NCBI RefSeq assembly: GCF_012979235.1
Contig: NZ_JAATWC010000001.1
Location: forward strand, 501,001 to 565,000
Direction of reading: 5' to 3'
Origin: Dissulfurirhabdus thermomarina
Lineage (GTDB): Bacteria > Desulfobacterota > Dissulfuribacteria > Dissulfuribacterales > Dissulfurirhabdaceae
DNA length: 64,000 bases
Of the stretch, positions 30,094 to 58,438 are shown in pieces. Both the position numbers and the translations under genes were made by a program. A model generated the notes under the pieces. It did no database searches. It worked only from the letters and a program-made list of their open reading frames with translations, and was not told the origin of the DNA. Positions within the stretch are counted from its first letter, which is position 1. The number at the start of each line of letters is the position of its first letter.

Positions 30094-30143
30094 GGCGGCG
30101 GCTCCCGCCCGGAAGGGCCCTGGCGGAGGCCGCGGGAAAATTT

Positions 30144-30315
30144 CCCTGCCCTGTTGGTGATCGACGGGATGTTTGTTGAGCCAACATCATTGAACCGGGG
30201 ACTTCCTCTCCCCGTCGCCGGGAAGGCGCCACGGCGCCGTCCCAAGCGGCGTGGACGAAATCCCCACCTGGCTTCCAGAGGTTCAATGGACCCCGGAGAC
30301 ACGGCATGGGCGGGG
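30144..30315 (+). ncRNA. ssrS: 6S RNA
   Basis: About 172 bases between zapA and rny with the marks of 6S RNA, the RNA that mimics an open promoter and binds sigma-70 RNA polymerase. A closing stem pairs CCCTGCCC (30144-30151) with GGGCGGGG (30308-30315). The right half contains CACCTGG, GAGGTTCAATGG and ACGGCATGGG in the order seen in E. coli 6S (CACCT, GGTTCAAGG, GCGGCATC). Location after zapA is the classical one. Ends are estimated from the closing stem. Confidence 0.8.
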
Positions 30316-30320
30316 GTTCA

Positions 30321-39896: not shown

Positions 39897-39994
39897 GGAA
39901 GCGGAAAGGGCGCTGGTGGCCCTCCCGGACTTCAAATCCGGTGCACGGGGTGAGGAGCCCCGTGGGTGGGTTCGATTCCCATGCGCTTCCGCCA
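39897..39994 (+). tRNA. selC: tRNA-Sec (anticodon TCA)
   Basis: 98-base tRNA with encoded CCA. The acceptor arm GGAAGCG pairs with CGCTTCC, extended to the long Sec type. The anticodon stem CCGGA/TCCGG frames the loop CTTCAAA with anticodon TCA (39932-39934), and a long variable arm (ACGGGG/CCCCGT) follows. These are the marks of selenocysteine tRNA, which inserts Sec at UGA codons with SelB. selA, selB and selD are not in the window. A candidate user is the frame at 56320-57231. Confidence 0.97.
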
Positions 39995-53938: not shown

Positions 53939-54299
53939 GGAGGTCCTCCTCTGGAACCGGGGTCTGGTCCTCAGCATGCTGGACCTATAAGAATACCACC
54001 GGCCCGGGGCGTCGGCAAAAGGGCGGGCGGCTTGACCGGCCGGAACGCTTCCCCGTATAGTGCAAAACCGGCTTGATCCTGGATCCGTGGCGGCCTTTGA
54101 CGGGCATCGGGCCGGGTCGCCCGGGACTTGAGATCCTGGGGGGTATGCGCCTTCCGGCGCATGCACCGCCGCCCTTCGGGGCGCCCGATAACGGGCCATC
54201 TGCGGCGTTGGCAATTTGCCGATATCGTTGACGCCGGGCATCCGGCTCGCCCTTGGATGCCCACAAATCCAGTTTGATTTCAAATGGTTATCGGAGGCC
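53939..54299. other. Non-coding interval with tandem perfect hairpins
   Basis: No gene. ATGCGCC (54145-54151) pairs with GGCGCAT (54156-54162) over TTCC, and CGCCC (54170-54174) pairs with GGGCG (54179-54183) over the stable tetraloop TTCG. No T-tract follows. An AT-richer segment with GGAGG leads into holA. A repeat or mRNA-stability element is possible. Confidence 0.5.
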
Positions 54300-55694
54300 A
54301 TGGCCAGGAAGACATCCTCAGAGGGCAGCCGCATCCAAGAGGCCGAGGCGGCCCTGGCGGAGGCCGCGGCAGGTCGGCCGGCCCCGGCCTACCTCTTCCT
54401 GGGCGAGCGGCCCCTGTGCCGGCCCTGGATCGACCGCCTCCTCGACCTCCTGGTGCCGGCGGCCGCCCGGGACTTCAACCTGGAGGTCTGCGACGGCGAG
54501 GGCCTGGCGGAGGGCACCCTGGTGGAACGGCTCGAGACCCGGCCCTTCTTCCCGGGCCGGAAGGTGGTTTGGGTCCGGGATGCGCCCTTCTTCCACTCGG
54601 CCGCCACGTTCCCCGCGCGGTGGCGCCAGGTGCGGGCCCTGGCGGCGAAGGGCGCCACGGAGGCGGCCATCCGCCGGGCCGCGCGTCTTGTGGCGGAGGC
54701 GAAGCTCTCCCCGGCCGAGGCGGCCCGGCTCCCCGCGGACCGGCTCGGGGAGGCCCTGGGGCTTGAGGGCGAGGCGGATCTCGCCGCCTGGTGCCGGGGC
54801 TTCCTGGAGCAGCGGGGAGAGGAGTTCCCGGAGACCGCCCCGGGGGCCGGGGCCGCCGACGGGCTCCTCCTCGACTGGCTCGCCCGCAGGGCCGATCCCG
54901 GCGCCGTGGTCCTCGTCCTGGAGGCCGAGGCCGTGGATCGGCGGGGGCGGTCCTTCCGGCGCTTCAAGACCCACGGCCGGGTGCTGGATCTCTCCCCGGA
55001 GGCCGACCGGGGGGGACGGGCGGAGGCGGCCGCCGCGGAGTTCGCCCGGCGCGTCCTCACCGAGGCCGGAAAGCGCATCGAGGCCGAGGCCCTCCGGGAC
55101 CTCCTCGCCAAGGTGGGCCCGGAGGACCGGGTGGCACTCCGGACCGAGCTCGAAAAGCTCTGCGCCGCCGCCGGCGGCCGCGGGACGGTCACCGCCGGGG
55201 ACGTGGCCGCCGCCGTGGTGCGGCACCGGGAGGAGGCCGTCTACGAGCTCACCGACGCGGTGGGGGCCGGTGACCCGGGACGCGTCTGCGTCACCCTGCA
55301 CCGGCTCCTCGCCCAGGGGGTGCACCCGCTGGCGGTGCTCCGGGCCGTGGCCAACTTCGTCCGGCGGATGGCCGTGGTACGGGCCGCCCTGGAGCGCACC
55401 GGGTCCCTCCGGCGCCTTTCGGGGCTCACCTACGCCCGCTTCCAGGCGGAGGTCCTGCCCGGTCTCCGGGAGGCCTGGGGGGAGCCGCTCCCCGGGCCGG
55501 TCCGGGGGCTCCACCCGTACGCCCTCTACAAGGTGGCCCTCCGGGCCCCGGCCTTCCCGCTGGCCCGGCTGTTGGGGGCGCTGGCGGGGATGGCCGAGGT
55601 GGACTTCGCCCTGAAGGGGGGCGGGCGGGGGGCCCCGGAGGTGGTGCTCGAGGCGCTCTTGCTGCGCCTTTGCCAAGGGAGGACGGCCGCATGA
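54300..55694 (+). CDS. holA: DNA polymerase III subunit delta, enlarged
   Basis: 464 residues against about 340 in most bacteria. The start AYLFLGERPLCRPW and ending helices GVHPLAVLRAVANFVRRM ... LYKVALRAPAF match HolA, the clamp-loader subunit that opens the beta clamp. The excess is an insertion of about 100 residues (about 105-205) rich in Ala, Glu and Arg, between the two halves of domain I. First gene of an operon: the HD gene starts on its stop (ATGA). Confidence 0.88.
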   Translation: MARKTSSEGSRIQEAEAALAEAAAGRPAPAYLFLGERPLCRPWIDRLLDLLVPAAARDFNLEVCDGEGLAEGTLVERLETRPFFPGRKVVWVRDAPFFHSAATFPARWRQVRALAAKGATEAAIRRAARLVAEAKLSPAEAARLPADRLGEALGLEGEADLAAWCRGFLEQRGEEFPETAPGAGAADGLLLDWLARRADPGAVVLVLEAEAVDRRGRSFRRFKTHGRVLDLSPEADRGGRAEAAAAEFARRVLTEAGKRIEAEALRDLLAKVGPEDRVALRTELEKLCAAAGGRGTVTAGDVAAAVVRHREEAVYELTDAVGAGDPGRVCVTLHRLLAQGVHPLAVLRAVANFVRRMAVVRAALERTGSLRRLSGLTYARFQAEVLPGLREAWGEPLPGPVRGLHPYALYKVALRAPAFPLARLLGALAGMAEVDFALKGGGRGAPEVVLEALLLRLCQGRTAA

Positions 55695-56323
55695 GCGGGG
55701 ACCCGGCGACGGGAGAGTGGCGGCGCCTGGCCCGCTTCCTCTTCGAGGGGGCCATGCTGAAGCGGACCTGGCGGACGGGGTACGCCTTCCTCGGCCAGGG
55801 GCGCGAGTCCGTGGCCGCCCACTCCTTCGGCATGGCGCTCATCGGCTGGATGCTCGCCCGGCGCCACGGCGGGGCCGACGCGGCGCGGGTGATCCAGCTC
55901 TGCCTCGTCCACGACCTCCCGGAGGCCCGGACCGGGGACGCCAACGCCGTCCACAAGCGTTACGTGACCCTGGACGAGGCGGCCGCGGTGGCCGACATGA
56001 CCCGGGATCTGCCCGGCGGCGGGGAGATCGCGGATCTGCTGGCGGAATGGCGGGCCGGGGAGACCGTGGAGGCCGCCCTGGCCCGGGACGCGGACCAGCT
56101 CGACATGCTCTTGTCCCTCAAGGTCCACCTCGATACCGGGAGCCCCGATGCGGGCCGCTGGATCCCCCACGTGCGGGCCCGGCTCCGCACCGAGACGGGG
56201 CGGGCGCTGGCCCGGGCCATCCTCGAGGAGAACTGGGCCAGCTGGTGGATGGAAGAACTCCTGGCAGGGGGCGCCGGCGGCGCATCGCCCCCGCCCGGGG
56301 ACGAATCGGGAGGTTCCGGATGA
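55691..56323 (+). CDS. HD-domain 5'-deoxynucleotidase-like protein
   Basis: 210 residues of the YfbR/HDDC2 type, with ESVAAHSFGMA, VHDLPEARTGD and the DADQLDMLL segment. It probably removes phosphate from deoxynucleoside monophosphates. Starts on the holA stop and ends on the next start. Confidence 0.88.
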   Translation: MSGDPATGEWRRLARFLFEGAMLKRTWRTGYAFLGQGRESVAAHSFGMALIGWMLARRHGGADAARVIQLCLVHDLPEARTGDANAVHKRYVTLDEAAAVADMTRDLPGGGEIADLLAEWRAGETVEAALARDADQLDMLLSLKVHLDTGSPDAGRWIPHVRARLRTETGRALARAILEENWASWWMEELLAGGAGGASPPPGDESGGSG

Positions 56324-57231
56324 AGACGAAGCGATGGATGGGGCTCTTGGCCGCCGCGGTCCTCGCGGGGGCCTGGCCCGCCTTGGGCCTGGCCGGGGCG
56401 GGTGACGTGACGCTGGCCTACACGGGAAACACCCTCGGGAAGCTGGACGCCTGCGCTACCTGAAAGGGCCGGAAAATCGGGGGAATGCCCCGCCGGGTCC
56501 GGTGGATCCGGGACATGAAGGCCCGCCAGCCCGGCCTCCTGCTGCTGGAGGCCGGGGACTTCCTCTTCGCCGACGAGCGGCCGGCGGACGAGGCCGCCCG
56601 GCGGCGCGCCGAGGCCCTGCTGGACCTCTACGCCGCCGCGGGCTACCGGGCCGCCGCCGTGGGGGCCCGGGATCTCTCCGCCGGGCCCGGGTTTTGCCTC
56701 GACGGGGCCCGGCGGCGCGGCCTCCGGTTGCTCTCGGCCAACCTCCGGGTCAAGGGGGCCGCCCCGGTGCCGGCCTGGACCCTCCTCGAGGCGGGCGGGG
56801 TCCGGGTGGGGGTGATCGGGGTCACCGGCACCTTCTACGGCGGGATCCGGCGCCGCGGCGACGTGGAGATCCTGGACCCCCGGCAGGTGCTCGCCCCCGT
56901 GGTGGCCGAGGTGCGCCGGAAGGCGGACCTCGTGGTGCTGCTCTCCAACCTCGGCGACACCGCCGACCGGGCCATCGTCCGGGCCGTTCCCGGGATCGAC
57001 CTGGTCATCGGCAGTGGGGCCGGCTCCCCCCGGGGCGGGCTCCCGGCCGAGGGGCGGACGGTGCTGCTCCGGACCCACCCCAGGGGGAAGTCCATCGGGG
57101 TCGCCCGGGTGCGCGTCCAGGGCGGATCCGTGCCGCCGGCGATCCAGAACCGCCTCGTGATGCTGACAGGCAACCTCCCCGAGGACCCGGAGGCCCGTGA
57201 ACGGGTCCGGGCGGCCCTCCACGGCCGCTAG
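56320..57231 (+). CDS. Probable selenoprotein: exported UshA-like domain with Cys-x-x-Sec
   Basis: One continuous frame of 303 residues broken only by TGA at 56461-56463 (codon 48). Read as Sec it gives C45-A-T-U48 in GNTLGKLDACATUKGRKIGG. Residues 1-27 form a signal peptide, so stopping at the TGA would leave 47 residues that are mostly signal. The rest resembles the 5'-nucleotidase/UshA metallophosphatase fold, but the usual metal motifs look lost: N37 in place of the first Asp-x-His, LLSNLG (207-212) for NHE/SHLG and IGSGAG (230-235) for GGHxH. I infer a periplasmic thiol/selenol redox or binding protein. ATG 56320 follows GGGAGG and overlaps the HD stop. A hairpin after the TGA (56469-56496) fits a SECIS. 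Confidence 0.8.
56461..56496 (+). promoter_or_regulatory. Candidate SECIS element after in-frame TGA
   Basis: Upper stem CGGGG (56478-56482) / CCCCG (56488-56492) of five pairs with apical loop GAATG, lower stem CCGG (56469-56472) / CCGG (56493-56496), and a 5' bulge AAAAT. The loop begins with G and lies 19 bases after the TGA. Bacterial SECIS elements need a short G-starting loop about 16-37 bases after the UGA. Confidence 0.7.
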
Positions 57232-58438
57232 CCCGGGGGCCGGCGGGGCCGCCCCGGCCGGGGCCTGCACCCGGTGCGGGGCGTGTCTCGCGGTGTGCCC
57301 GGTCTACCGGGTGCGCCGGCACGAGGCCGCCGCCCCCCGGGGAAAGACCGTGGCCCTCGGTGCGCGGCCCCCGGTCGCCGGGCCGGGCCTGGAGCGGATG
57401 CTCTCGGCCTGCCTCCAGTGCGGGGCCTGTGCGGCCCGGTGCCCGGCCGGGATCTCGCCGGCCGATCTCGTGCAGCAGGCCAGGGCCGAGGGGCGGGGCG
57501 GCCGGGGGGGGCGGGCGGCCGCCCGGCTCTTCGGCGCCGCCTTTTCGGGGGGGCGGGGCGGCCGGTTCGCGCGTCTTTTCGCCGGGGGCCTCCGGTTCCT
57601 CCGGCGCCTGCCCCTTCCGGGGGGCGGGGGCTGGGGGTTCCCCGCGCCTGCCGCGCTCCCGGCCACGGGGCGGCCCGAGCTGCGCCCGCTGTGCCCGGGC
57701 GCCGGGCCCGTCCGGGCGGCCCTCTTCGTGGGGTGCCTCCAGGAGCACTTCTTCCCCGAGGTGGCCGTGGCGGTGGCCCGCTGGTTCGGGGAAGGAGACC
57801 TGGCGGTGCCCGCCGGGCAGGGCTGCTGCGGGCTGCCCGCCTGGGCCGCGGGGGACGTCGCCGGGGCCCGGGACCAGGCCCGCCGGTTCGTCCGGGTCTT
57901 CGCCCCCCTCCACGCGACGTGGGTGGTGACGGGATGCGCCTCGTGCGCCGCCTTTCTCTCCCGGCGGCTCCCGGGGTTGTTCCCGCCCGGGGATCCGGAC
58001 GGCGAGGCCGCCGCGGCCCTGGCCGCCCGGGTCCGGGAGTTCGCCCGGCTCGTCCTGGAGCTCGGCCTGCGGCCGGCCGGCGCTCCCGGTACCCCGCCCC
58101 CGGCGGCGGTCACCTGGCATACCCCCTGCCACCAGCGCCACGGCCTCGGGGATCCATCCGTCCTGCCCGAGTTCCTGGAAGCCCTCGGCGGCATGGACCT
58201 CCGGCCCGCGGGGGAAGGGTGCTGCGGGCAGGGCGGGGCCTTCGCCTTCCGGGAGCCCGGGACGGCGGAGGCGCTCCTTGCGGCGCGGCGTTCGGACTTC
58301 CGGGCCGCCGGGGCGGAGGTGGTGGTCACCAACTGCTCCGGGTGCCTCCTGCGGCTCCGGGCCGGGCCCGCGGGTCCAGGGGACGGGGGGGTCCGGGTCC
58401 TGCACCCCGCCGAGCTGGCCCAGGGGCGGGGGGGCTGA
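57197..58438 (+). CDS. Fe-S oxidoreductase with two CCG domains (GlcF/LutA-like)
   Basis: 413 residues. Two ferredoxin clusters, CTRCGACLAVCPVYR and CLQCGACAARCP, are followed by CCG domains with GQGCCGLP, GCASC, THTPCHxR-like WHTPCHQR, GEGCCGQGG and TNCSGC. It passes electrons from a partner flavoprotein, perhaps the GlcD-type gene at 50449. Start GTG 57197 overlaps the selenoprotein by 35 bases. The family has known Sec members, but here all cluster positions are Cys. Confidence 0.85.
   Translation: MNGSGRPSTAASPGAGGAAPAGACTRCGACLAVCPVYRVRRHEAAAPRGKTVALGARPPVAGPGLERMLSACLQCGACAARCPAGISPADLVQQARAEGRGGRGGRAAARLFGAAFSGGRGGRFARLFAGGLRFLRRLPLPGGGGWGFPAPAALPATGRPELRPLCPGAGPVRAALFVGCLQEHFFPEVAVAVARWFGEGDLAVPAGQGCCGLPAWAAGDVAGARDQARRFVRVFAPLHATWVVTGCASCAAFLSRRLPGLFPPGDPDGEAAAALAARVREFARLVLELGLRPAGAPGTPPPAAVTWHTPCHQRHGLGDPSVLPEFLEALGGMDLRPAGEGCCGQGGAFAFREPGTAEALLAARRSDFRAAGAEVVVTNCSGCLLRLRAGPAGPGDGGVRVLHPAELAQGRGG

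Follow-up and report, generated by a model that had tools for sequence, protein, structure and literature searches.

The window analysed here, a stretch of 64,000 nucleotides from Dissulfurirhabdus thermomarina, contains a candidate UshA-like selenoprotein gene between an HD-domain gene and a gene for an Fe-S protein, and it also encodes tRNA-Sec, as the first-pass annotation had stated. The features on which the following description relies are:

39897–39994, + strand: tRNA-Sec gene, the UGA reader (ARAGORN; Rfam RF01852, 75 bits)
54216–55694, + strand: holA, DNA polymerase III delta subunit (PF21694), at the start of the conserved gene order
55670–56323, + strand: HD-domain gene (HD_3, YfbR-like; PF13023, E=1.8e-26), directly 5' of the candidate selenoprotein gene
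56320–57231, + strand: candidate UshA-like selenoprotein gene, 303 aa with Sec48 when TGA is read as Sec
56320–56397, + strand: probable signal peptide, residues 1–26, MKTKRWMGLLAAAVLAGAWPALGLAG, recognized by inspection
56452–56463, + strand: C-x-x-U motif, Cys45 (TGC) and Sec48 (TGA)
57197–58438, + strand: Fe-S/CCG protein (GlcF/HdrD type; PF02754, PF13183), 3' of the candidate gene, with a true start that may lie later

The sole in-frame TGA of the 56320–57231 frame lies at 56461–56463 (residue 48), the frame being otherwise open, and translation with TGA read as Sec gives LDACATUKGRKIGG around this position. A Shine-Dalgarno-like GGGAGG is located 6 nt 5' of the ATG, which overlaps the stop codon of the HD-domain gene in the sequence ATGA. 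The order holA, HD-domain gene, selenoprotein gene was found in 26 of 31 loci, usually followed by the Fe-S/CCG protein gene (20/31) and rlmE (17/31), with proC farther 5' in many of them; these figures count loci and not independent genomes, because some loci are two records of one contig. Given this conserved gene order, the subfamily is vertically inherited within the order Dissulfuribacterales. Across the 31 loci, the neighbours (holA, HD, Fe-S and rlmE) include no obvious redox partner or pointer to a substrate. A 6S RNA gene is also present in the window, at 30140–30320 (RF00013, 57 bits).

The genome encodes selA (603 bits), selB (378 bits) and selD in two copies, one scoring 383 bits and the other, which contains an internal TGA, 361 bits; all exceed their curated cut-offs, and the genome thus has the selB and selD on which the first-pass annotation had made its Sec reading depend. 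The two selD genes (L122, G000:C10:60300-61700, and L123, G000:C4:99000-100400) comprise a Sec form, TCGUAAK with an in-frame TGA, and a Cys form, AAGCAAK; in the Sec-type gene, a hairpin occurs at 20 nt, its loop being CGTGCT. The presence of selA was considered as a marker separating genomes with the gene from those without it, and was rejected as uninformative because selA is almost universal in the order (41 out of 45 genomes).

Conservation of the selenocysteine column

A match to the selenoprotein gene was obtained in 48 of 60 related genomes, and the 29 best relatives, all from Dissulfuribacterales, were read through the TGA and aligned. The TGA falls at the identical column in all 29 of these order-mates, whose identity to the window protein ranges from 27 to 41%. 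The motif shared by the clade, from which single members deviate, reads C-x-x-U-[GKR]-G-K-x-x-G-G-[ILM]-x-R-R; within the clade, the column is Sec in 31 of 31 members and Cys45 is present in 27. Sec occurs at the same column in other groups of the phylum, as PCGU or PCPxU, and the column is shared by members of the NCBIfam families NF041198 and NF049981. Three Sec-less homologues (L062, L097 and L050, the last from a Myxococcales MAG) carry Cys there, all as C-G-C. The alignment proposed in the first-pass annotation, looking for Cys at position 48, therefore had a supportive outcome in distant relatives, which have Sec or Cys, although the C-x-x-C relatives it expected did not appear: all Cys homologues found belong to other orders and have the motif C-x-C, and the clade column is always Sec.

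In the wider set, one UshA-like paralogue above the NF041198 cut-off (L084, G153:C168) has neither Cys nor Sec (DPSGRF). Two MAG orthologues (G041:C269:14321-15232 and G014:C58:261-1154) each gave a match in two parts, the first of which contains the TGA; this may reflect either a broken frame or a stretch of divergent sequence.

The TGA could also be a plain stop, in a pseudogene or through an assembly error, with a shorter protein made from the ATG at 56485; a 248-aa ORF does begin shortly 3' of the TGA. This reading is scarcely credible, since it does not account for a TGA at one column in every aligned order-mate, and conservation extends 5' of the TGA to strand beta-1 and the signal peptide, so that homologues begin upstream of it and not after it, and a sensible product requires readthrough, as initially proposed. 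For the published assembly of strain SH388 (71.1% GC, GTDB order Dissulfuribacterales), the reported coverage of about 1384x also argues against an assembly error (PMC7463578). All three possibilities (a pseudogene, an assembly error or an internal start) were rejected on the basis of conservation. The features of a bacterial selenoprotein, namely a conserved in-frame UGA with Sec or Cys homologues and the presence of selA, selB, selD and tRNA-Sec, are found together here, and on this sequence evidence we regard the window gene as almost certainly a real selenoprotein, with its Sec in a C-x-x-U motif as first suggested.

Placement within the UshA-like selenoproteins

The first-pass annotation considered the family to be new and missing from published lists, which does not hold, because UshA-like selenoproteins are already on record. 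The CxU form is included in the 2008 GOS list (PMC2398784) and in a 2022 review (PMC9312934), and a 2026 review lists both UshA-like NF041198 (CxU) and family 2, NF049981 (CxxU, GenBank-annotated) (PMC13188914). No reported function for this group was found in the literature. The corresponding NCBIfam models are the UshA-like (seleno)protein model NF041198, with a cut-off of 275 bits, and the family 2 model NF049981, with a cut-off of 140 bits.

The window protein has the features of the superfamily, a nucleotidase-like domain with Sec or Cys between beta-1 and GG-x-x-R. It reaches 150.9 bits against NF041198, its best full-domain score, and 85.9 bits against NF049981, both below the cut-offs. 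Ten clade members that were tested scored 129–185 and 54–114 bits, respectively, none of them attaining either cut-off. The CxU form (PCGU) is absent from the clade, the window protein having C45-A-T-U48, that is, the CxxU listed for NF049981. The A1 profile proved too heterogeneous to scan the collection with, and the A2 subset yielded 12 named relatives. The 31 order members form one clade in two trees (SH-aLRT 97 and 95); family 2 was represented only by fragments in the first, which the second mended with the clade retained.

The window protein may alternatively be a divergent NF049981 member with the same CxxU, domain length and function. Besides the shared motif, both groups lack metal ligands and lie near each other in the trees, both of which place family 2, or part of it, on the same side as the clade, a placement not to be over-read. 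However, the scores of the window protein and of the ten clade members stand against this assignment, true NF049981 members of the same phylum score 254–286 bits and form a separate supported group in the second tree, and the second hairpin described below is absent from family 2. We consider such membership unlikely. The gene very probably encodes an exported selenoprotein of a third UshA-like subfamily, and there is good reason to treat this as a new subfamily of the known group, named by no NCBI model.

Hairpins downstream of the UGA

Two hairpins follow the UGA within the coding sequence:

56478–56492, + strand: hairpin 1, arms CGGGG and CCCCG around a GAATG loop, 19 nt after the UGA, at the ancestral SECIS position
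56493–56511, + strand: hairpin 2, CCGGGTCC GGT GGATCCGG, loop 37 nt after the UGA, the clade's best SECIS candidate

Neither is significant in the window gene alone; in this GC-rich gene, hairpin 1 does not exceed the chance level (z -0.45 in folding and -0.98 against synonymous codons). Across 30 genes, strong excess folding relative to synonymous-codon shuffles was confined to one of 20 segments, the 30-nt one starting three codons after the UGA, with a mean z of -1.6 compared with +0.1 to -0.65 elsewhere. In every comparable sequence codon 57 ends in C, which puts this column first among the 107 four-fold columns ranked by constraint; five of the top six places are taken by codons 53, 57, 59, 60 and 61, and codons 59–64 are those spanned by hairpin 2. 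On average, 5.33 of its six core pairs form in the 30 genes, where synonymous shuffles give an expectation of 3.63 (SD 0.16), and the hairpin is fully paired in 19 of them against 1.5 expected. With one sequence per lineage (n=15), the mean is 5.0 against 3.59 expected, and the resulting z of 7.06 is the highest of 300 same-shaped windows in the gene (runner-up 4.21).

Covariation in the two hairpins jointly exceeded all 500 shuffles, and every double change falls within hairpin 2 (C-G to A-U, G-C to C-G and U-A, and U-A to C-G); the main weight is placed on the synonymous-codon test because the covariation shuffles keep relatedness. RNAalifold recovered parts of both hairpins with little energy. 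A candidate lower stem around hairpin 1 (GATC...GGTC) showed no covariation and was discarded in favour of hairpin 2. No Rfam family matched the hairpins at its gathering threshold. On the opposite strand, 56479–56533 gave a sub-threshold match to RF02975 (DUF3800-XI RNA; 29.8 bits, gathering threshold 37.8), probably an echo of GC-rich inverted repeats.

The distribution of the hairpins differs between the clade and its relatives. Outside the clade, hairpin 1 is kept (mean z -1.53), typically as TTGGC-GGTCTT-GCCAG in the PCGU group, and hairpin 2 is weak or absent (-0.44); within the clade, the values are -1.74 and -2.92, respectively. Three clade members (L006, L013 and L018) have the old GGUCUU hairpin, and in these hairpin 2 forms only two to three of its six pairs, so that a SECIS relocation would be preserved in the natural sequences of this family. 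Compared with the bacterial SECIS model (4–16 bp, a 3–9 nt loop with G in the first two positions, 16–37 nt from the UGA, dG <= -7.5; PMC13188914), hairpin 2 fits with 8 bp, GGT, 37 nt and dG -12.2, and hairpin 1 has 5 bp, GAATG, 19 nt and dG -8.8. The first-pass proposal of a SECIS at 19 nt was thus correct as to the existence and ancestral position of the hairpin, which is significant across relatives, but the hairpin is at chance level in this gene alone and hairpin 2 is the better supported of the two. These comparisons suggest that the SECIS of the clade most likely moved to hairpin 2 or became two-part. The more specific proposal, in which the element was relocated within the coding sequence from 19 to 36–37 nt after the UGA, or turned into a two-hairpin element, while the protein stayed unchanged, is one that we hold in even balance.

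A dead nucleotidase scaffold and its Cys/Sec site

A Pfam search with the window protein gave no matches. An AlphaFold2 model built on a 30-sequence alignment has a mean pLDDT of 90.5, with values below 50 in segments 1–5 and 14–25, in the region of the probable signal peptide. The best solved matches in Foldseek are 5'-nucleotidases (3ivd, 2z1a and CD73), with TM scores of 0.7–0.8 by query length, in agreement with the UshA-like domain assigned initially. Relative to the Thermus 5'-nucleotidase, the eight metal-ligand positions of the window protein (L001) are N, L, D, A, R, N, G and G: one is left, none is fixed in the clade, and the ligands of an active 5'-nucleotidase or metallophosphatase (DxH, GD, GNHE, H, GHxH) are, apart from this one, not found in the window protein, confirming the early impression that the metal-binding motifs had been lost. 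Judged from its residues, the phosphatase is dead, and the conserved feature is the Cys/Sec loop adjoining the former metal motif.

Since the metal ligands are lost, we infer that the dead nucleotidase scaffold carries a Cys/Sec site of redox or metal type. Redox use of Cys45 and Sec48 is the likeliest role, although we propose it tentatively: the fold is that of a nucleotidase and not of a thioredoxin-type oxidoreductase, and because Cys45 is replaced in 4 of 31 members in which Sec is kept (L023 and L024, VHSU; L030, LHAU; L018, SKSU), a simple Cys-Sec couple is not universal. In the corresponding model, the protein would be exported to the periplasm after SelB, guided by the hairpin pair with hairpin 2 most likely as the SECIS core, had inserted Sec; Cys45 and Sec48, in the loop after the former DxH motif, would then act as a selenenylsulfide/selenol centre, perhaps on reduced sulfur species or thiols.

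A Cys/Sec cluster replacing the dimetal site could instead bind a thiophilic metal or oxyanion, as a periplasmic chaperone or scavenger of soft metals or metalloids. The position of the Sec loop after the former DxH motif agrees with this, as do a third Cys, which 9 of 31 clade members have at residue 36, adjacent to the former metal-ligand Asp, and a His at -2 from Sec in three of the members without Cys45 (L023, L024 and L030). Nevertheless, the extra Cys is not general and the conserved neighbourhood contains no metal transport or resistance genes, which makes a metal-binding role rather improbable.

Somewhat less probable again is sulfur chemistry, with Sec48 carrying or reducing sulfane sulfur or groups derived from thiosulfate, in analogy to the relative SoxB, which acts on protein-bound thiosulfonate. 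Among the characterised enzymes of NCBIfam, SoxB gives the top score (E=3.8e-11; UshA, 0.008) and the order includes sulfur disproportionators (PMC7463578), yet the metal ligands are lost, solved SoxB is only a weak match (E=0.068) and the genome paper reports no sulfur-oxidation marker genes (PMC7463578). Redox use of the Cys/Sec pair remains the reading we prefer.

The clade adds an order-wide third branch to the UshA-like selenoprotein group, one in which a dead nucleotidase scaffold bears an invariant Sec, so that a redox or metal role is directly testable. Because its members fall below both NCBI models, at least 30 genomes probably carry the gene mis-annotated, either divided in two by the TGA or with a start placed beyond it. 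At the protein level the finding is of modest interest; the proposed relocation of the RNA element is more unusual, and the set of hairpin 2 sequences offers natural material for testing SelB recognition distance and SECIS relocation.

Among known systems, NF041198 (UshA_like_PCGU; COG0737 UshA-like, CxU) shares with the window protein the N-terminal nucleotidase-like domain and Sec at the same column before GG-x-x-R/K, but its 519-position model includes a C-terminal half and its motif is PCGU instead of CxxU. Unlike the clade, its members retain the Asp of DxH in 11 of 12 cases, with the two His kept in about half, and have a SECIS with a GGUCU-type loop at the hairpin-1 position. NF049981 resembles the window protein in its short form, its CxxU and its lost metal ligands; it differs in forming its own clade and in lacking hairpin 2, and the window protein and its clade score far below its cut-off. 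The UshA and CD73 5'-nucleotidases (2z1a, 3ivd, 1ush) have the same N-terminal metallophosphatase domain fold, whereas the window protein lacks their C-terminal substrate domain and all but one of the eight ligands, having the Cys/Sec motif instead. The SoxB thiosulfohydrolase (TIGR04486), although the top-scoring characterised enzyme family, is matched with only 42 bits against a cut-off of 550. Finally, hairpin 2 resembles the consensus SECIS model (PMC13188914), with 6–8 bp, G[G/U] at the loop start and a distance of 36–37 nt in most members, but it lies at the far edge of the 16–37 nt range, and an extra hairpin is also kept at the usual distance.
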